Source: Planctomycetia bacterium
GTDB lineage: Bacteria; Planctomycetota; Planctomycetia; Pirellulales; UBA1268
Length of the DNA: 40,491 bases
Reading direction: 5' to 3'
NCBI GenBank assembly: GCA_014192425.1
Contig: BJHK01000022.1
Span: 5,026 to 45,516, forward strand
Shown here: one piece after another, positions 6,416 to 26,437 of the stretch
Numbering within the stretch: the first letter of the stretch is position 1
How the letters are laid out: each line of letters opens with the position of its first letter
The notes under the pieces: generated by a model
Seen by the model: the letters and a program-made list of their open reading frames with translations, nothing else
Database searches by the model: none
What the model was told of the DNA's origin: nothing
Made by a program: the position numbers and the translations under genes

Positions 6416-8179
6416 ATGACCAGTCCTGATCAATCAGCCGCGAACGAGCCCGCGGACGCCGATTCGTCGGCGCCGCGGCGCATCCCGATCGGCACCCAGC
6501 GGCCCGGCGTGAAGCCGCCGTCGCTGGCGCCGAAGTATCAGTACGTGACGCCGTCCAAGCCCGTGGCGGAGCCGGCCGATGCGTCCGCAGAACCGCCGGC
6601 CGCGGCAGAACAGGGAGCGGATGAGGTCGTTGCCCAGACCGGCGCACCGGCCGTCGTCACCCAGACCGGCGCACCGGCCGTCGTCACCCAGACCGGCGCA
6701 CCGGCCGTCGTCACCCAGACCGGCGCAGCGGCCGTCGTCGGCCAGACCGGCGCACCGGCCCCTGCCCCCGGGACTTCCGCCGCTCAGCCGTCGGCCACAC
6801 CCGGTGCCGCCGACGCCGATGACAAGCGTGGCCGGGGCGGCCGCCGCGACCGGCGCCGCGACTCGGGCAACAAGGCCGCCTTCGCCGACACGCTGCCGCC
6901 GTCGCGCCGCGTGGCCGTGCCGAATCTCCGCGCCGATCTCGACGAGGAGTTGGAAGCCGACTTCGAGGCGGCCGTGGCCGGCATCGAGGTCGAGGACCTG
7001 CTGACCACGTCCGCCTCCGCCCGCGTCGATGCCCCGCTCGAGCCGGGCGCTCGGGTCAATGGCCGCGTCCTCGCGATCGGCCCCGACACGGCGTTCATCG
7101 ATCTCGGCCTGCAGCGGCAGGGGGCGATGAAGCTCGCCGGCCTGATGGAAGCCGGCATCGACATCCCGGAGGTCGGCCAGAGCATCGATGTCGCCGTCGG
7201 GGCTCGCAACGAGGAGGACGGCCTGTACGACGTCGCACTTGCCAACCGGGCGGTCGCCGTCGAGGACTGGTCGCAACTGCAGGCGGGCATGGTCGTCGAG
7301 GCCAAGGTCACGGCGGCCAACAAGGGGGGCCTGGAGTGCCAGGTGGCCGGGCTGCGCGGCTTCATGCCGGCGAGCCTGGTGAGCACGTGGCGAATCGAAA
7401 ACCTCGAGGAACTCGTCGGACAGACGCTGGAAAGCCTGGTGACCGAACTCGCCCCCGAGGCCCGGCGGCTCGTGCTCTCGCGACGGGCCGTGATCGAGCG
7501 GCAGGCGGCCGATGCCAAGGCGAAGCTGCTCGAGACGCTGGAGCCGGGCACCGAGCTCGACGGCATCGTGAGGAGCGTCCGCGAGTTCGGTGCCTTCGTC
7601 GACATCGGCAACGGTGTCGAGGGGCTCGTCCACGTCAGCGAACTCTCCTGGGAGCGGGTGGCGAACCCGGCCGACGTCCTCCAGCAGGGGCAGAAGGTCC
7701 GCGTCGTCGTCAAGAAGATCGACCGCCAGACCGGCAAGATCGGCCTCTCGGCCCGCGACCTGATCGAAAGCCCGTGGAAGCGGGCTGCCGACAAGTATCA
7801 CGTCGGGTCGACGGTCCGCGGCACGGTCAGCCGGATCGCCCAGTTCGGCGCGTTCGTCAGGCTGGAGCCGGGCGTCGAGGGGCTCGTGCACATCTCGGAA
7901 CTGGCGACGCGGCACATTCGCAGCGTCGGCGATGTCGTGCGCGAAGGGCAGCCGGTGGAGTGCCGCGTGCTCGACGTCGATCCCGACGCGCAGCGGATGT
8001 CGCTGTCGATCAAGGCTCTCGCTCCGGCGCCGGCGTCCGCCCAGTCCGCGGAGCAGGATGCCGCGGAGGCCGACGAGCCAGAGGCCGTGGCACCGCCCGC
8101 GGCGCCGAAGCGGACCGGTCCGCTCAAGGGTGGCCTCGGCGGCCGGTCGGACGGCGCGAAGTTCGGCCTCAAGTGGTGA
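6416..8179 (+). CDS. S1 RNA-binding domain protein, ribosomal protein S1-like
   Basis: A 587-residue cytoplasmic protein with four S1-type OB folds at about residues 208-277, 287-356, 377-446 and 463-533. The last two are the clearest (FGAFVDIGNGVEGLVHVSEL and FGAFVRLEPGVEGLVHISEL). This resembles a shortened S1, which in bacteria helps mRNA binding to the 30S subunit; classical S1 has up to six domains, so either the S1 orthologue or a paralogue is possible. Residues 1-200 are a disordered, Ala/Pro-rich and charged leader containing tandem QTGAPAVVT repeats (73-115) and an arginine-rich patch (138-148). The C terminus is another low-complexity tail ending in FGLKW. It follows tRNA-Leu and is convergent with serS, 27 bp apart. 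Start ATG 6416 is preceded by GCGGAAG. Confidence 0.85.
   Translation: MTSPDQSAANEPADADSSAPRRIPIGTQRPGVKPPSLAPKYQYVTPSKPVAEPADASAEPPAAAEQGADEVVAQTGAPAVVTQTGAPAVVTQTGAPAVVTQTGAAAVVGQTGAPAPAPGTSAAQPSATPGAADADDKRGRGGRRDRRRDSGNKAAFADTLPPSRRVAVPNLRADLDEELEADFEAAVAGIEVEDLLTTSASARVDAPLEPGARVNGRVLAIGPDTAFIDLGLQRQGAMKLAGLMEAGIDIPEVGQSIDVAVGARNEEDGLYDVALANRAVAVEDWSQLQAGMVVEAKVTAANKGGLECQVAGLRGFMPASLVSTWRIENLEELVGQTLESLVTELAPEARRLVLSRRAVIERQAADAKAKLLETLEPGTELDGIVRSVREFGAFVDIGNGVEGLVHVSELSWERVANPADVLQQGQKVRVVVKKIDRQTGKIGLSARDLIESPWKRAADKYHVGSTVRGTVSRIAQFGAFVRLEPGVEGLVHISELATRHIRSVGDVVREGQPVECRVLDVDPDAQRMSLSIKALAPAPASAQSAEQDAAEADEPEAVAPPAAPKRTGPLKGGLGGRSDGAKFGLKW
6635..6766 (+). repeat. 27-bp in-frame tandem repeat, about 4.9 copies
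   Basis: Unit CAGACCGGCGCACCGGCC followed by GTCGTCACC, encoding QTGAPAVVT. Copies lie at 6635-6661, 6662-6688 and 6689-6715 (identical), 6716-6742 (three changes) and a partial fifth from 6743. Identity of the first three copies points to recent slippage or unequal exchange. It lies inside the disordered leader of the S1-domain protein. Confidence 0.95.
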
Positions 8180-12900: not shown

Positions 12901-13198
12901 GGCTGGCTGGCTGACCGCGCTCGACGGTCCGCGGCAGGCGGCCGTGCGGCTGGCGATCGCGGGTCTGCATCGGCTGGCGGGCGCCGACCGGGCCACGGCG
13001 GCCTTCGTGGATCCGGCGGCGGACCCGCAGGATCGACCGCAGCCCGGCAGCGACGGCCTCGCGCCGGTCACGCCGTTTCCTTGGGCGACGTGGCGGGACG
13101 CCTGGGACGCTGTTGCTGGGGTTTCGCCGCGGGCAGCACACCCGGGCTTTCCACAGGCTGTCGGGGAGCCGGTCGGGGGCACGCGCAGGAGCCGGTGA
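9983..13198 (+). CDS. Large membrane protein of unknown family
   Basis: A 1071-residue protein I do not recognise. Residues 1-about 500 are soluble, mostly helical and rich in Ala/Arg, with many W/F positions near the start (FWPRIPHREIVVIAARRL, YWRRLFHGQL). Residues about 525-830 hold roughly eight hydrophobic stretches, including LLTTHLLLPFGAAWIALHGV, VRMLAIGILLWAMLHVP, LVPMIPMVAGQLVATTGM and LALTVVTFVSTCIPGVFGF. The last about 240 residues are soluble, contain paired basic and acidic helices (SEVSEFVEHECLGLV) and end in a Pro/Gly-rich tail. Between the membrane segments lies a run resembling an amphipathic gate region (FHIHILTGLVAWIIDLFRRAVD). It starts 36 nt after clpS on the same strand and has no nearby downstream partner. 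It could be an envelope scaffold or channel; no enzymatic motif was seen. Confidence 0.8.
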   Translation: MSERSAPFDVFRIEQEIRARHPEVVFASPRTLRRVIRADRGLPAFWPRIPHREIVVIAARRLAEIADDFWAFPADLPETILLVARPDADRYQTQGLEALLRAYWRRLFHGQLDARLAGLDAAARARIAAAVPPDILGEARAVLEQELAVGRDAGDDAVRAEFVATFLELRGFAPDVVGDWFPAIADADALADVLGPEVAAGDLFAATRPAGIESDDDPAEPVAIRPVAAARGMLPAWWPRPTAAFLRRGADRAAARGNLVRAILDELRAATAGDRSGAAEPRADHVAAFARRVVHASGAGEEAVARWAAFIRGVAVVSGGSAWTASARLLFDLQKLCVDAERESYATRLLSWLASAGRRPLTKPLPCQRLLAIHRHAVKASTRLARLGAEVGGADGADLLAGAVSATGRAARSGLQPRVEAAIHGAGLVPGCLVEEAAFDTLVDELLDGMLDRGFISFGDLRDTVSRNQLKLPDLAGIGEWLAGDQLLRADRALGAALDGAYRPAPVYLAVLQRLSAPFFGVGAGRLLTTHLLLPFGAAWIALHGVDHVIEPLTAYSLGETWHIYTTVRMLAIGILLWAMLHVPAVRTALRTVAGMVGGVLYELAFVLPARLLRLPAVAAILSSLPVAWFRRYLASPLVLTGAAWLCLPHHGGAVSRSTPWVPPALFAVATTLLSSRVGRLAQERIVEGIGRAVHQFHIHILTGLVAWIIDLFRRAVDAVEGTLYAVDEQLRFHSGESRAALAVKSVLAAAWSVVDAGVRFCVTLLIEPQLNPIKHFPVVTVSHKLLVPMIPMVAGQLVATTGMEKGLALTVVTFVSTCIPGVFGFLAWELKENWRLYAANRPGSLRPVQVGPHGETVRRLLLPGFHSGTIPKLFAKLRHSRAASRGSAQRRAALAEHHLHDLESEVSEFVEHECLGLVRRAAGFDGVVLRVADVALAVDRIGIAVAADALGPEPLEIEFVRRDGGIESRVRAAGWLTALDGPRQAAVRLAIAGLHRLAGADRATAAFVDPAADPQDRPQPGSDGLAPVTPFPWATWRDAWDAVAGVSPRAAHPGFPQAVGEPVGGTRRSR

Positions 13199-13324
13199 AC
13201 TTTGCCTGCACCACACGACGCACCATGCCGCAAGAGCCCGCGACGGCAAAGTCCGCCGGCGACGAGCATGCTCCCGATCGGCGGACCATCGCCACCGGCC
13301 GCGAGGGGTCCGCGCGGCACCCTT

Positions 13325-13365
13325 CAAAAAGCGAGCGGCCCGGACCATCGGGGTCCGGGCCGCTC
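13325..13365 (-). terminator. Intrinsic terminator of the YTV-repeat gene
   Basis: A perfect 14-bp inverted repeat, GAGCGGCCCGGACC (13333-13346) and its complement (13352-13365), with a 5-nt loop. Read on the minus strand it is followed by GCTTTTTGAAGG, a five-T tract, which is the classic Rho-independent form. It begins 30 nt after the stop of the YTV gene. On the plus strand there is no T tract after the hairpin, so it is directional. Confidence 0.88.
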
Positions 13366-13394
13366 GGCATCGACAGGGGACGATCAGGCCGCGA

Positions 13395-15704
13395 TCATTC
13401 GCAGCAGGGAACCTCGCGGTACACCGTCTTCGGCACGCACCGGGTCACCGTGTAGGCGACCTTCTTCGGCACCAGCCGGACGACGTCGACCGTCTTCGTG
13501 AAGTGCACGGGCCGGGTGACACAGACGGGAACCTGCTTCGTCCGCGTCTCCCGCACCATCGTGCACACCTTGTAGCACTCCTCGCGTGACCGCTCCTCGC
13601 GGACCATCTTGCAGACCCGCGACGTGCAGGTCTTGACCCGCTGCTCCGCGACCATCGTGCACACCTGGTAGGTGCAGGTCCGGACCTGCTCCTCCGGCAC
13701 CATCCGGCAGACCTGATAGCTGCAGGTGCGAACCCGCTGCTCCGGCACCATCCGGCACACCTGGTAGGTGCGAACGCGCTGCTCGGGCACCATCCGGCAG
13801 ACCTGGTAGGAGCAGGTGCGCACATGCTGCTCGGGGACCATGCGGCACACCTGGTAGGTGCGGACCCGCTGCTCGGGCACCATGCGGCAGACCTGGTAGG
13901 TGCAGGTGCGGACGCGCTGCTCGGGGACCATCCGGCACACCTGGTAGGTGCAGGTCCGCTGCTCGGGGACCATCCGGCAGACCTGGTAGGAGCAGGTGCG
14001 GACGCGCTGCTCGGGGACCATCCGGCACACCTGGTAGGTGCGGACACGCTGTTCCGGCACCATCTGGCAGACCTGGTAGGAGCAGGTGCGGACGCGCTGC
14101 TCGGGGACCATGCGGCACACCTGGTAGGTGCAGGTCCGCTGCTCGGGGACCATCCGGCAGACCTGGTAGGTGCAGGTGCGGACGCGCTGCTCGGGGACCA
14201 TCCGGCAGACCCGGTAGGTGCGGACCCGCTCCTCCGGCACCATCCGGCAGACGGTGTAGGTGTAGGTCTTGAGCCGCTGCTCCGCGACCATCGTGCACAC
14301 CTTGTAGCACTGCTTCTCGACGACGGTCTCCTTGACGTGACGGATGCACTCGATCTCCTTCTCGTGCACCTCGGGCACCCAGACCTTCTTGGTGATCGTC
14401 CGCGGCGGGCACTGCTCCTCGATCGTGCACACCTCACCGGGCACGAAGCACTTCCGGCCCGTGCACGGGTCGCAGACCCAGCAGCCCGGCTCACGGATGC
14501 GACGGGTCACCACCGGTCCGGGGACCTCGCAGGTCTCCGTCTCCCAGCGGCCGCTGCAGACCTTGACCGTCTTCGTGAAGCGGACGGGCTTGCAGACCGT
14601 CCGGCACACGTCGCGCTCCCGCGTCTCCCACACCGGCTTGCAGACGGTGTAGGGGATCTCCTTCGTGCACACCTCCTTGACCGGCTTGCAGACGGTGTAG
14701 GTCTCCTGCCGCTCCTCGTAGACCGGCTTGCAGACGGTGTACGGGATCTCCTTGGTCATCGTCTCGGAGACGGGCCTGCAGACGGTGTACGTCCGCTCGC
14801 GGGTCTCGTAGACGGGCTTGCAGACCGTGTAGGGGATGTCGCGGGTCCGCGTCTCGTAGACCGGCTTGCAGACGGTGTACACCTGCTCGCGGGTCTCGTA
14901 GACGGGCTTGCAGACGGTGTAGGGGATCTCCTTGGTCATCGTCTCGTAGACGGGCTTGCAGACGGTGTAGGTCCGCTCGCGGGTCTCGTAGACGGGCTTG
15001 CAGACGGTGTACGGGATCTCCTTGGTCATCGTCTCGTAGACCGGCTTGCAGACGGTGTACGCCTGCTCGCGGGTCTCGTAGACGGGCTTGCAGACCGTGT
15101 AGGGGATTTCCCTGGTCCGCGTCTCGTAGACGGGCTTGCAGACGGTGTACACCTGCTCGCGGGTCTCGTAGACGGGCTTGCAGACCGTGTACGGGATCTC
15201 CTTGGTCATCGTCTCGTAGACGGGCTTGCAGACCGTGGAGCGGATCTCGCGGGTCCGCGTCTCGTAGACGGGCTTGAGCACCGTGTAGGGAACTTCCCTG
15301 CTGATCGTCTCCCAGACCGGCTTGCAGACCGTGTAGTTGACGGTCCGGCTCCGGGTTTCCCAGACCGGCCGGCTGACGGTGTATTCGACTTCCTTGACCG
15401 ACCGCTCCGTCTCGTAGCGGACGCAGTCGATCTCACGCTGCTCGACGACCCGCTCGCAGACCGTCTTGTAGCAGGTGTATTGCTGCTGCTCGTAGACGAC
15501 GTCCTTGACGAGCCGCGTGCCCGTGCACGGCGCGGGATCTTCGCAGCCCGTGCAGCCGGCGCGGGCCTCGGCGAAGCCGACCGCCGTCATCTTCGCTCCG
15601 GCGTGCCGGAAACTGGCCAGCCCGCAATAGCCGGCGTCAGCCGCGTTGCTCCACGTCACCATGCCGGTCAACGCCAGCACACACCACAACAGCCTGCTTT
15701 TCAT
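13395..15704 (-). CDS. Exported cysteine-rich YTV-repeat protein
   Basis: A 769-residue exported protein of the planctomycete YTV-repeat type (PF07639-like), probably a cell-surface or envelope structural component; its function is not known. The start is ATG 15704, which yields signal peptide MKSRLLWCVLALTGMVTWSN with cleavage near ADA-GYC; the frame is open to 15875 but without a signal there. Residues about 115-400 hold about 17 copies of YTVCKPVYET units, alternating 16 and 14 residues. A distinct linker (about 400-480) contains WVCDPCTGRKC and other Cys pairs. Residues about 480-700 hold about 14 copies of a second unit, YQVCRMVPEQRVRTC. A short tail ends in PCCE. Nearly every repeat carries one cysteine, so a ladder of disulfides or metal sites is plausible. 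It has its own terminator and is divergent from rex. Confidence 0.85.
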   Translation of the reverse strand: MKSRLLWCVLALTGMVTWSNAADAGYCGLASFRHAGAKMTAVGFAEARAGCTGCEDPAPCTGTRLVKDVVYEQQQYTCYKTVCERVVEQREIDCVRYETERSVKEVEYTVSRPVWETRSRTVNYTVCKPVWETISREVPYTVLKPVYETRTREIRSTVCKPVYETMTKEIPYTVCKPVYETREQVYTVCKPVYETRTREIPYTVCKPVYETREQAYTVCKPVYETMTKEIPYTVCKPVYETRERTYTVCKPVYETMTKEIPYTVCKPVYETREQVYTVCKPVYETRTRDIPYTVCKPVYETRERTYTVCRPVSETMTKEIPYTVCKPVYEERQETYTVCKPVKEVCTKEIPYTVCKPVWETRERDVCRTVCKPVRFTKTVKVCSGRWETETCEVPGPVVTRRIREPGCWVCDPCTGRKCFVPGEVCTIEEQCPPRTITKKVWVPEVHEKEIECIRHVKETVVEKQCYKVCTMVAEQRLKTYTYTVCRMVPEERVRTYRVCRMVPEQRVRTCTYQVCRMVPEQRTCTYQVCRMVPEQRVRTCSYQVCQMVPEQRVRTYQVCRMVPEQRVRTCSYQVCRMVPEQRTCTYQVCRMVPEQRVRTCTYQVCRMVPEQRVRTYQVCRMVPEQHVRTCSYQVCRMVPEQRVRTYQVCRMVPEQRVRTCSYQVCRMVPEEQVRTCTYQVCTMVAEQRVKTCTSRVCKMVREERSREECYKVCTMVRETRTKQVPVCVTRPVHFTKTVDVVRLVPKKVAYTVTRCVPKTVYREVPCCE
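13640..14290 (-). repeat. Coding repeat block 2 (YQVCRMVPEQ units)
   Basis: About 14 units of 42-48 nt encoding YQVCRMVPEQRVRTC and shorter variants. The DNA shows a higher-order period of 180 nt (four units): 13861-14040 is nearly identical to 14041-14220. This level of identity, including third codon positions, suggests recent duplication or gene conversion within the array. Confidence 0.9.
14590..15340 (-). repeat. Coding repeat block 1 (YTVCKPVYET units)
   Basis: About 17 units that alternate a 48-nt form (YTVCKPVYETMTKEIP) with a 42-nt form (YTVCKPVYETREQV), giving a 90-nt period; compare 14761, 14941 and 15121, which start nearly identical stretches. The outer copies are more diverged (YTVLKPVYE, YTVCKPVRFTKT), as expected if the array grows from the middle. 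Confidence 0.9.
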
Positions 15705-15851
15705 CTCTGTAGCCGCTCTCGGGGAGGGCTCCTGCGAACGGAATGGGATCCACGCGAACCGACCCGCGGTCCGCCACCCAAACCATCGGCCACAAACTCG
15801 ACGCAGATCGACCATTTCCCGCGACCCTCCGGCTTTTTCCAGAGTCCCGCC

Positions 15852-15872
15852 GGTGGTACAACCGTTACCACC
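15852..15872. promoter_or_regulatory. Inverted repeat between the YTV gene and rex (possible operator)
   Basis: GGTGGTA-N7-TACCACC, a perfect 7-bp dyad with a 7-nt centre, in the 252-bp divergent gap. It lies about 85 bp before the rex start and about 150 bp before the YTV start. Its size suits a dimeric regulator. It does not match the TTGTGAA-type Rex consensus of other phyla, so the partner is unknown. Confidence 0.35.
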
Positions 15873-15956
15873 CATCCCCCGGGAAGAGGATCGTTGGTGT
15901 TTCCCAGGCGGGGGGGTAGAGTCGACGCGGTTTTCCTGGGTCTGCCGGCCGCTGCC

Positions 15957-16661
15957 ATGACTGAATCCCGTCCTTCATCCGCCCCGCCGGGAGACGTGCC
16001 GTCGGATGCGACGGTTCCCAAGGTCGTCGTCAACCGGTTGTCGCTCTATCTGCGCGAACTGCAGCGACTGGTCGCGTCCGGCGAGCACACGATCTCCTCG
16101 GGGCAGTTGGGCACGTTGCTCGGCTTCAGCGACGCCCAGGTTCGCAAGGACCTCGGCTTCTTCGGGCAGTTCGGCTACCCGGGCGTCGGCTACCGCTGTG
16201 AAGAACTGATCCGGGCGATGCGGGACATCCTCGGCACGAACCACCCGTGGGCCGTGGCGATGGTCGGGGTGGGCAACCTCGGACAGGCGTTGCTCGGCTA
16301 CCGCGGCTTCGGCCGGCAGAACTTCAGGATTGCCGCCGCCTTCGACGCCGATCCGGCCAAGGTGGGACGAACGATCCAGGGGATCCGTGTCCAGCCGCTC
16401 GCCGAACTGGCGGAGACCGTCCGATCCCAGGGCCTCCGCCTGGGGATGATCGTCGTGCCGGCCGATCGGGCGCAGGAAGCGGCGGATCTGCTCGTGGCCG
16501 CCGGGGTCGAAGGGATCGTGAATTTCGCCCCGGTCACGCTCGCGCTGCCCGCCGGCGTGGAGAACGTCGGCGTCGACCTCGCCATCGAACTGGAGCAGCT
16601 TTCGTTCGCGGTGACGAACCGTCCGGGCAAGGGGCCGGCCGAGGCCGCGCCGGCGGGCTAG
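15957..16661 (+). CDS. rex: Redox-sensing transcriptional repressor Rex
   Basis: Rex binds operator DNA when NAD is abundant and lets go when NADH rises, controlling fermentative and respiratory genes. The 234-residue length is somewhat longer than the usual about 210 because of a 20-residue N-terminal tail. Residues 22-80 form the winged helix (RLSLYLRELQRL, then SSGQLGTLLGFSDAQVRKDL and FGYPGVGY). The Rossmann domain begins at 98 with VAMVGVGNLGQALL (GxGxxG 104-109), and the characteristic GVEGIVNFAP segment and C-terminal swapped helix VGVDLAIELEQLSF follow. ATG 15957 is the start that places the winged helix normally; the frame is open much further upstream only because it is antisense to the repeat gene. 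It stands alone as a monocistron, with tRNA-Gln downstream. Confidence 0.95.
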   Translation: MTESRPSSAPPGDVPSDATVPKVVVNRLSLYLRELQRLVASGEHTISSGQLGTLLGFSDAQVRKDLGFFGQFGYPGVGYRCEELIRAMRDILGTNHPWAVAMVGVGNLGQALLGYRGFGRQNFRIAAAFDADPAKVGRTIQGIRVQPLAELAETVRSQGLRLGMIVVPADRAQEAADLLVAAGVEGIVNFAPVTLALPAGVENVGVDLAIELEQLSFAVTNRPGKGPAEAAPAG

Positions 16662-24554: not shown

Positions 24555-25214
24555 TCATTTCGTCGCCGGCGCGTCCTTCTTCGCCCCCTTCTCCTCGAGG
24601 ATGATGGATGCGGAGTTGATGCAGTAGCGGAGGCCCGTCGGCGGCGGGCCGTCATTGAAGACGTGGCCGAGGTGGGCGCCGCAGCGCCGGCAGGTGACCT
24701 CGGTGCGGACGCCGAAGCCGGGGACGGCGGCCAGCGAGCGGTCCGCGTGCTCGGCGATCGCCTTCCCCTTCACGCCGTCGATCGGGGCCGTGAAGCTCGG
24801 CCAGCCGCAGCCGCTGTGGAACTTTTCGCCGGAGGCGAACAGCGGCTCGCCGCAGCAGACGCAGCGGTAGGTGCCGGGCGTCTTGGTGTCGGTGTATTTG
24901 CCGGTGAAGGCCCGCTCTGTCCCCTTCTTGCGGGTCACCTCGAACTGCAGGGACGTAAGCCGCTTCTTCCACTCCTCGTCGTTGCGGGGCAGCTCTGCAT
25001 CGGGGACGCGGCCCTTCGCGGCCGGGTTCTTCTCGGCATCGACCGTTTCATTCTCTGGTACCGACACGGGTCTGGACTCCTGTTTGGCCGGCGGTGCGGC
25101 CGACGCCGAGGGAAGGAAACAGGCCGCGGCCAACGGCAGCGTGCACGTGAACACGGCCTGCCACGACGGACGATGCCTGCTGATCCGATGCCCGGTTATC
25201 TGGTGCCTGGTCAT
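24555..25214 (-). CDS. msrB: Exported peptide-methionine (R)-S-oxide reductase
   Basis: Repairs the R form of methionine sulfoxide in proteins. The 219-residue product has an N-terminal basic region and hydrophobic stretch ([20 protein letters not shown], 21-40), so it is likely exported, then a linker and a full MsrB domain. Zinc ligands are C118/C121 and C175/C178 (CVCCG, CRRCG), with HSGCGWPSF (133-141) and the catalytic C198 in RYCINSAS. The C terminus has a charged tail. ATG 25214 has GAGAGG upstream; the frame is open to 25895 but that part is antisense to the next gene's frame. It starts 24 nt after the cyclophilin stop, so both probably form an operon for folding and oxidative repair of exported proteins. 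Confidence 0.93.
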
Positions 25215-25223
25215 CTGATGCCT
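25171..25223 (-). repeat. 15-bp imperfect tandem repeat across the msrB start codon
   Basis: On the minus strand AGGCATCAGATGACC, AGGCACCAGATAACC and GGGCATCGGATCAGC follow one another, with a partial fourth AGGCATCG. The first copy contains the ATG start; the rest encode [10 protein letters not shown] and RHRPS-like pentads. The repeat may have arisen by slippage and sets the length of the basic N region of the signal peptide. Confidence 0.7.
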
Positions 25224-25237
25224 CTCCTGCGAACGGA

Positions 25238-26437
25238 TCACTGCGGTTTCGCCCGCGGGTCGGGCAGGACCTTCGGCTCGTAGGGGTGGTTGCGACGCCG
25301 GACCACCTCCGCCTTGACGATTGTATCCGGTTTGAGGCCGGGGAGCGGCCGGCCCTGTTCGTCCTGCGTGCGGATCAGTTTGGGGAGCACGTCGAAGCCG
25401 CTGATAACGCGGCCGAAGACCGTGTGCTTGCCGTCGAGGTGCTCCGTGGGGCGAAAGGTGAGGAAGAACTGGGATCCGCCGGTGTTCTTCCCCGCATGGG
25501 CCATCGACAGCGAGCCAAGAAAGTGCCTGCGGGAGCCCGGCGCACCGCACTCGCACTCGATCGCGTGCCCGGGGCCGCCGCGGCCCGTGCCCGTGGGATC
25601 CCCCCCTTGTGCCATGAAGCCGCCGATCACGCGGTGGAACGGGGTGCCGTCGTAGAACTTCCGGTCGACGAGGGCGATGAAGTTGGCGACCGTGTTCGGC
25701 GCCTCGTTCTCGAACAACTCCACGACCACGTCTCCCGCCGAGGTCGCGAGCTTCACTCGCGGCAGGTCGTCGGCCTGCGCCTCCGCCTGCCGCTTGGTCA
25801 TCTCCTCGGCCACCTTGGGCCGCTCCCGTTCGATCGCCCCCCGCAGGTCCTCGAGATTGGCATCGCTCCCCACCTTCCCGGCCTTGGCGAGCCATGCTTC
25901 CGCCGCGTCGAGCCGCGACAGGACCATCGCCGCCGTGGCGGCCATGAGCAGCACGTTGCCGTCGGCGGCTCCGGCCCGGTCGAGCCGTTCGACGACCTCC
26001 AGCGCCTTCGCCGGCGCATCCCCCTGCAGCATCCGGGCCACCACCGCGCCGGTGACCTCGCCGGCCGCCTTGTTCTTCGGATCGACATCAGCCAGCGCGA
26101 AGGCCGTCTCTTCCAACCGCTCGCTGGCGGCCCGCAGTTTCTTCTCCAGTGGCTGGGCCTTGGCGATGATGGCCTGCTTGTCGGCCTCGGGCTGCTGGTA
26201 CTGGGCCTCGAGCAGCGTGAGCTCACCGAGGAGTGCCTTGAGGTCCTTGCTGGCGGCCGCGAAGGCGGCCCGTGATGCACCGACATCGGCGCGGGCGGCC
26301 GCCGCCGCCGGCTGGGCCGCCGTCACCGTGCCCGTCCAGACCGTTGCCCAGGCCGTCCCCCAAGCCGTCGTCACGACGACGGCCCAGGCCGCGGTCAAGC
26401 GCTCATTCCCCGCTCCCTGAAATCGTGCGGCATACAT
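25238..26437 (-). CDS. Exported cyclophilin-type peptidyl-prolyl cis-trans isomerase
   Basis: Speeds up proline isomerisation during protein folding, here outside the cytoplasm. The 399-residue product has a signal-like hydrophobic stretch at about residues 15-42 ([20 protein letters not shown]), a helical, probably coiled-coil region (about 52-120), a second helical region, and a cyclophilin domain at about 225-390. Cyclophilin motifs include [19 protein letters not shown] (with the catalytic arginine of FHR), GGSQFFLTF and [12 protein letters not shown] short Pro-rich tail follows. CAGGAG precedes ATG 26437 by nine nt. It leads the operon with msrB. The helical N-terminal half is not part of standard cyclophilins and may mediate dimerisation or substrate binding. 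Confidence 0.9.

Follow-up and report, generated by a model that had tools for sequence, protein, structure and literature searches.

It is not settled what gives the proposed protein wall of planctomycetes its cohesion. The subject here is a single gene in a 40,491-nucleotide (nt) stretch from a Planctomycetia bacterium of the order Pirellulales (GenBank contig BJHK01000022.1, positions 5,026 to 45,516; the window), which encodes a 769-residue protein of the YTV family (the window protein). Coordinates below are positions of the whole window, and residues are numbered in the window protein. The reading frame was found where the first-pass annotation, made from the letters alone, had placed it (13395 to 15704), and its strand is minus. 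Since the Pfam YTV profile (PF07639; gathering score, 21 bits) matched 25 stretches of the protein with 586 bits (E value, 9.9e-181), the match is not due to chance and the gene belongs to the family; NCBIfam also returned enoyl-CoA hydratase, but at 24 bits (cutoff, 260) this match was attributed to chance. We propose that the window protein is probably an exported wall component folded as one giant antiparallel beta-hairpin.

Matched arms and mirrored unit order

Two repeat blocks flank a cysteine-rich linker of about 95 residues that, as annotated beforehand, contains WVCDPCTGRKC. Block 1, of YTVCKPVYET type, has 17 cores starting at residues 108 to 352, with an 18th, at residue 368, opening the linker; block 2, of YQVCRMVPEQ type, has 17 cores at residues 467 to 711, the last of which opens the C-terminal cap. 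The first-pass count of about 17 units was right for block 1, and its count of about 14 was too low for block 2. Inside both blocks, the core-to-core spacing is always 16 or 14 residues, the two values first annotated for block 1. Read backwards from the core at 352, the block-1 gaps run 16,14,16,14,16,14,16,14,16,14,16,14,16,16,16,16, which is the order of the block-2 gaps read forwards from the core at 467 (16 of 16), and the core starts sum to 819 in all 17 block-1/block-2 pairs. That the two blocks evolve separately, as had been suggested, is not supported: their sequences do differ, but the lengths and the order of their 14- and 16-residue units mirror each other.

Since the structure predictions described below gave a hairpin in a fragment and ladders summing to 829 in the full-length model, they led to a structure-free test, namely, whether arms are matched in length and spacings are mirrored in relatives. 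A search of the order with the linker found matches in 128 of 196 genomes (E ≤ 1e-8), and 100 of the 127 other genomes were fetched; four anchors (an N-terminal motif, the two linker halves, and a C-terminal motif) were placed by profile. The C-arm minus the N-arm was exactly -13 residues in 60 of 101 proteins of the order. With 12 proteins of low anchor score dropped (none of them at -13; the cutoffs were chosen after the scores were known), the exact match held in 60 of 89 proteins, which represented 20 different lengths, with N-arms of 118 to 360 residues. Permutation of the 48 distinct length pairs gave a mean of 1.08 matches and a maximum of 6 in 20000 permutations, compared with the 20 observed. 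All 48 distinct N-arms were even and 47 of the 48 C-arms were odd, so that the face of the ribbon would be kept even where the lengths differ.

The order of the units followed the same pattern. Of the 602 block-1 cores in the 60 matched proteins, 509 had a block-2 counterpart precisely where mirroring would place it; offsets of 1 to 13 or of 15 residues gave at most 1 mirrored core, and a shift by a full unit (14 or 16 residues) still left 127 to 381 cores coinciding, because the arrays are periodic. Irregular orders are shared as well: both arms of G227 (a genome in one contig) read 14,14,16,14,14,14,14,16,14,14, and both arms of G022, past the first block-1 gap, read 16,16,16,14,16,16,16,14,16,16,14,16,16,16,16. 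Among the 22 distinct proteins of mixed spacing, 241 of 262 cores were mirrored, against 118.9 (standard deviation, 10.2; maximum of 2000 shuffles, 155) when the gap order of block 2 was shuffled. The surveyed proteins are related rather than independent, so that it is fairer to count only distinct lengths and distinct orders.

For a second, Gemmata-like order, the linker of G076 served as the query; it had matches in 70 of 81 genomes, and 40 loci were fetched, of which 14 had no frame carrying the VWV anchor and 4 more had no N anchor. Local identity of these proteins to the window protein was only ~40 to 44%, and 20 of the 22 doubly anchored ones gave the register value of the window protein (sum-2v = -53). 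In these 20, the tyrosine of (P/A)YTV (PYCV in one) lies opposite the first residue of a CYRPVYKT-type motif. Arm length was constant among them; since it hardly varies in this order, these proteins speak for the register but provide no test of co-variation. When cores were compared, two proteins from this order scored best at the predicted register (6 of 26 cores, and 7 of 21, the latter tied with one other shift). In the source genome's own paralogues C11 and C20, no core was mirrored at that register; a shift of one residue gave 5 of 16 and 3 of 8 mirrored cores, respectively, and a shift of +13 gave 6 and 3.

At the level of sequence, then, the matched arms, the mirrored unit order, and one register constant in two orders are established. 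They bear directly on the idea of an ordinary tandem-repeat wall protein without a long-range fold, in which the cysteines alone matter and the matching of the arms was inherited rather than selected. The family is a known one, its arrays expand and shrink, 29 of the 89 proteins have unmatched arms, and three proteins from three families outside the order show few or no mirrored cores at the predicted register (1 of 25 cores in G112, 0 of 20 in G043, and 0 of 7 in G109). We nevertheless regard this idea as highly improbable, since it leaves unexplained the 20 distinct matched lengths, the identical register of the second order, and the case of G030, whose block-1 cysteines have all been replaced and whose arms still match.

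Predicted fold, register, and cysteines

When residues 306 to 545 were run in AlphaFold2 with 24 relatives, the fragment was predicted as one long hairpin (mean predicted local distance difference test score [pLDDT], 79), in which the last units of block 1 pair with the first units of block 2 across a turn made by the linker. Its strand pairs (2-89/130-217, 93-99/120-126, and 103-106/113-116 in fragment numbering) all sum to 219, i.e., 829 in the window protein, and the ladders of the full-length model at the base (63-112/717-766) and at the tip (368-394/435-461) also sum to 829; that model has, in addition, a helix at residues 3 to 13, in the region of the Sec-like N terminus. In the predicted hairpin fold, the N-terminal leader and block 1 would form one strand, the cysteine-rich linker would make the turn, and the returning strand would consist of block 2 plus the C-terminal cap and would lie core to core with block 1, residue i facing approximately residue 829 minus i. 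At the rise of a beta strand, ~0.33 nm per residue, arms of 350 residues would yield a ribbon of roughly 100 to 115 nm.

Matched arms and mirrored order would follow equally if the arms paired between two molecules, in an antiparallel dimer or polymer rather than in a single hairpin, and wall proteins do polymerize. However, the linker is nearly constant (the distance between its anchors is identical, 46, in 91 of 101 proteins), a tight beta turn is predicted in it, and the register continues through the tip, and we consider pairing between molecules unlikely. Quite unlikely, in our view, is a second arrangement, in which each block adopts a compact repeat fold of its own (e.g., a rod or beta-solenoid), with the resulting rods packed next to each other. 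Pfam does treat the repeats as a domain, and packing of rods would yield matched lengths, but it needs neither residue-exact matching nor a mirrored order of 14- and 16-residue units, and the fragment model shows long continuous strands (the full-length model is too weak to decide).

Several observations weigh against the single hairpin or its predicted register. The template modeling (TM) score predicted for the fragment was only 0.26, the full-length model is weak (pLDDT, 35; predicted TM score, 0.22), and AlphaFold2 may be biased toward hairpins for such sequences. A Foldseek comparison with the solved structures in the Protein Data Bank (PDB) gave best TM scores of ~0.1 to 0.2, and the best candidate for a solved homolog by sequence, HeliScrew4 (E value, 0.0011), was not convincing. 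Moreover, charges pair best elsewhere than at the AlphaFold2 register (0), which brings together 168 pairs of opposite charge and 10 of the same sign. Register +2 gives 1174 opposite and 20 like-charge pairs, the best ratio among registers with many charge pairs; registers +8 (1077 versus 39) and -6 (1387 versus 300) are acceptable by charge, too. Register -4 opposes mostly like charges (931, versus 225 opposite) and would set the position-4 cysteines face to face (444 pairs, versus 123 expected). The 829 register is therefore approximate.

The survey has its own exceptions, besides the three proteins of other families mentioned above. An earlier mixed set comprised 40 proteins; all anchors were present in 20 of these, and the arms matched in 10 of the 20. 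The anchored survey did not include G009 and G011, the genomes of two unmatched proteins of that set (L062 and L053, respectively). G067, from outside the order of the window protein, lies 8 residues off the predicted register. The 29 unequal pairs of arms are off by -96 to +92 residues, mostly near multiples of 30. Exact matches fell from 20 of 22 proteins in genomes of at most 10 contigs, through 10 of 15, 9 of 14, and 12 of 17, to 9 of 21 where fragmentation was highest (over 200 contigs; all contig numbers are rounded values), because of which assembly collapse may explain part of the unequal arms; family and assembly quality are confounded in this stratification, and 2 of the 22 proteins from good assemblies (G167, in one contig, and G198, in ~10) have unequal arms. 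Finally, the two YTV proteins that score highest in a Tuwongella wall preparation, both cysteine rich, were found exclusively in the Tris/sodium dodecyl sulfate (SDS)-soluble fraction, according to PMC8567305, which fits poorly with a fully SDS-resistant network.

With the single hairpin retained as the preferred reading, the cysteines can be placed on it. There are 68 in 769 residues (9% of the presumed mature chain). The first-pass rule of one cysteine per unit stands for most of block 1, where unit position 4 is cysteine in 15 of 17 units (it is missing from the units at 108 and 140, and those at 336 and 352 have a second cysteine), and fails for block 2, in which a further cysteine is present at position 15 or 13 of 10 of the 16 units. 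Because unit lengths are always even, every position-4 cysteine would lie on one face of the ribbon; 16 of 17 cysteines in block 1 and 17 of 27 in block 2 do fall on one face, the other 10 falling on the opposite one. Facing cysteine pairs numbered 1 in the AlphaFold2 register and 36 in register +2, against 124 expected in each case, and intra-hairpin disulfides between position-4 cysteines are disfavored in these two preferred registers. Since the cysteines avoid facing each other within the hairpin, we infer that any disulfides would for the most part connect one ribbon with another: the thiol ladders would be oxidized after export and would staple neighboring ribbons into a sheet or mesh, giving these inter-ribbon bonds a mechanical role.

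A disulfide-linked structure, as first proposed, is plausible. Loss of the cysteines in homologs, which had been named as speaking against it, does occur in block 1, where Met, Asn, or Leu replaces cysteine in some families of the order (e.g., L124, L132, L133, and L045) and where it does count against such linkage; block 2 keeps its cysteines. In G100, 11 of 17 block-1 positions are Met and block 2 has 11 of 11 cysteines, and in G030, all 9 are Met or Asn and block 2 has 9 of 9 cysteines. The block-1 ladder is thus not indispensable.

Predicted wall location, relatives, and array DNA

Judged by its amino acid sequence, the window protein is apparently an exported, cysteine-rich YTV wall protein. 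This reading draws on the family match and on wall proteomics of relatives, in which YTV proteins were detected in planctomycete walls (PMC8567305 and PMC5287468); for the window protein itself, the location is predicted, by analogy with this literature. YTV proteins are described as major constituents of Gemmata walls obtained by boiling in 10% SDS (PMC5287468), and the proposal of a planctomycete protein wall is traced to the 1980s (cited in PMC8567305). PMC10632474 lists a YTV protein among the essential genes of Planctopirus limnophila.

The window gene shares with the YTV proteins of Rhodopirellula, Gemmata, Tuwongella, and Planctopirus a common profile (PF07639), a signal-like N terminus, and cysteine-rich repeats. 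The repeat domain and the cysteine content are described in the family literature; no description of mirrored arms or of a hairpin in YTV proteins was found in the accessible portions of the openly available literature. The family to which the gene belongs is thus known, and its mirrored-arm architecture appears to be new. Long antiparallel beta-hairpins also form the stems of pore-forming proteins listed by Foldseek (the lysenin, aerolysin, and anthrax protective antigen pores), but whole-fold TM scores to the model were ~0.1 to 0.2, with 5 to 14% identity in the aligned parts, and no homology is claimed. The stem hairpins of beta-barrel pore-forming proteins are much shorter. The OmcB protein of Chlamydia is a disulfide-linked, cysteine-rich envelope protein and is not known to be a YTV repeat protein; the analogy is one of function only, that of a cysteine-rich protein layer in the envelope.

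Matches to the window protein were present in all 40 sampled genomes (its own included) and in every one of the 79 genomes of the class, and matches to the YTV family were absent from 14 named control genomes, in a survey that did not extend to other phyla; YTV proteins are restricted to planctomycetes according to PMC8567305. Besides Lacipirellula limnantheis, the named relatives (43 loci) are almost all planctomycetes assembled from metagenomes; several carry the names of lakes. Across 11 close sequences of full length, one of them the window protein, the linker had 93 to 94 residues by the cut used for comparison, the N-terminal part 107 to 125, and the C-terminal part 58 to 62, with 11 to 20 units in block 1 (one count, 13, reflects two merged units) and 11 to 19 in block 2. 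The source genome (3.98 Mb in 70 contigs) has three more YTV loci, L125, L126, and L127, with cysteine contents of 0.9, 4.4, and 5.2%; two of these paralogues have a linker-like center (VWV or RKWV).

DNA homogenization is real in the family and moderately supported in the window gene, so that the earlier statement that the arrays are still being homogenized holds in part. Tandem Repeats Finder reported 90-nt arrays in both blocks and a 270-nt array also in block 1. The longest exact DNA repeat, 58 nt at an offset of 180, exceeded the maximum of 51 in 40 codon-shuffled genes; in all, 8 of the 11 genes tested exceeded their own codon shuffles. Identity of synonymous codons, in contrast, was not above 300 codon shuffles in the window gene, either in block 1 (0.798, versus a mean of 0.786 and a maximum of 0.810) or in block 2 (0.784, versus 0.789 and 0.824); by this test, 5 of 11 genes had at least one block above all shuffles. 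The close relatives L054 and L070, 98 to 100% identical outside the arrays, have 18/17 and 16/11 units; both come from metagenome assemblies, where collapse of arrays is possible.

Locus context and meaning for the wall

The features of the locus are collected in Table 1. Between AGGAG and ATG, a distance of 23 to 25 nt in all 23 sequences compared, lies a small hairpin (~15709 to 15724, minus strand) with a CCUC/GAGG or CCCC/GGGG stem in most sequences and variable loops; it would, by its predicted pairing, restore normal spacing. Alternative pairing of AGGAG with CTCCT is possible in some sequences, e.g., in the predicted fold of L055. The conserved upstream block is nearly gap free and apparently noncoding (in-frame stops in some relatives, by eye). 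An upstream RNA element was rejected, the RNAalifold consensus for the intergenic region being weak (-11.6 kcal/mol over 387 columns), and both Rfam matches in 13190 to 16000 were below their gathering scores.

Table 1. Features of the YTV locus (window positions; residues of the window protein)
Feature	Position	Strand	Remarks
YTV wall-protein gene	13395..15704	-	769 residues; ATG start, stop included; translation and PF07639 match of 586 bits
Sec-like signal peptide, residues ~1-24 (MKSRLLWCVLALTGMVTWSNAADA)	15633..15704	-	Assigned by eye
N-terminal leader strand, residues 63-107	15384..15518	-	Conserved TCYKT motif; predicted partner, C-terminal cap
Block 1, residues 108-367	14604..15383	-	17 units, YTVCKPVYET...; spacing 16/14
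Linker, residues 368-466	14307..14603	-	Includes 18th block-1 core; predicted hairpin top and turn
Hairpin tip CDPCTGRKC, residues 411-419	14448..14474	-	Strands 103-106/113-116 of the fragment model flank the turn
Block 2, residues 467-710	13575..14306	-	16 units, YQVCRMVPEQ...; spacing 16/14, mirror order of block 1
C-terminal cap, residues 711-769	13398..13574	-	17th block-2 core, then VAYTVTRCVPK...; predicted partner, N-terminal leader
Shine-Dalgarno-like AGGAG	15729..15733	-	24 nt before ATG
Conserved noncoding block (TGGAAAA...GTCAACCTGCGGGGAGTTTGTGGCCGAT in relatives)	15781..15848	-	Alignment of 18 intergenic regions
rex, redox-sensing repressor	15957..16661	+	Named from two Pfam domains; divergent, 252 bp from YTV gene

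The divergent rex gene was kept in 28 of the 29 named loci (L051 to L091) with at least 900 bp upstream, 14 others being too short; in the exception, L056, a carbamoyl-phosphate synthase small subunit gene (by eye) takes its position. Of the 18 genomes sampled from the order, 15 had a Rex match, and in 14 of the 15, it was divergent within ~2 kb (read from coordinates); among the matches listed for the other sampled orders, no divergent rex/YTV pair was seen. The consensus Rex operator is TTGTGAANNNNTTCACAA. With it, 14 loose matches were found in the window, none of them between the rex and YTV genes, and 72 rex upstream regions had 405 mismatches, against 414.5 when shuffled. Operator-like sites were found elsewhere, nearly perfect in L095 (1 mismatch) and with 3 to 4 mismatches in L104 to L107. 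Control of the YTV gene by Rex is therefore not claimed, strong synteny notwithstanding, as the consensus operator was not found beside the gene; the idea that a disulfide wall is coupled to redox state is attractive but unproven.

Three further observations concern the neighborhood. At the one locus read for this purpose in G038 (L103, 2376 to 2813, minus strand), rex and the YTV gene are separated by an open frame whose N terminus looks pseudopilin-like by eye. At 24555 to 25895 (minus strand), ~9 kb from the YTV gene, a gene encodes a SelR (methionine sulfoxide reductase B) domain. Within the gene of an S1-domain protein (6416 to 8179), a 27-nt repeat occurs in five copies (94% matches; 6626 to 6760).

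For the family as a whole, we lean, if only slightly, toward the view that YTV wall proteins of the window type form a separate structural class, that of mirror-symmetric hairpins made from a single chain and ~50 to 130 nm long, whose two diverged arrays co-vary in unit length like the base pairs of an RNA stem and whose one-sided cysteine ladders polymerize the ribbons into the wall. Any change in array size would then have to be matched on both arms, which would make hairpin length a tunable dimension of the wall. If this is true, a main component of the planctomycete wall gains a testable geometry, with a ribbon length, a thiol spacing, a tip, and a base; one array would be predictable from the other, and the pairing of long strands could be read from sequence lengths alone. 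Such a protein would be an unusually long beta-hairpin, relevant to materials and to export, as it would need to be kept reduced and free of pairing up to its passage across the inner membrane.

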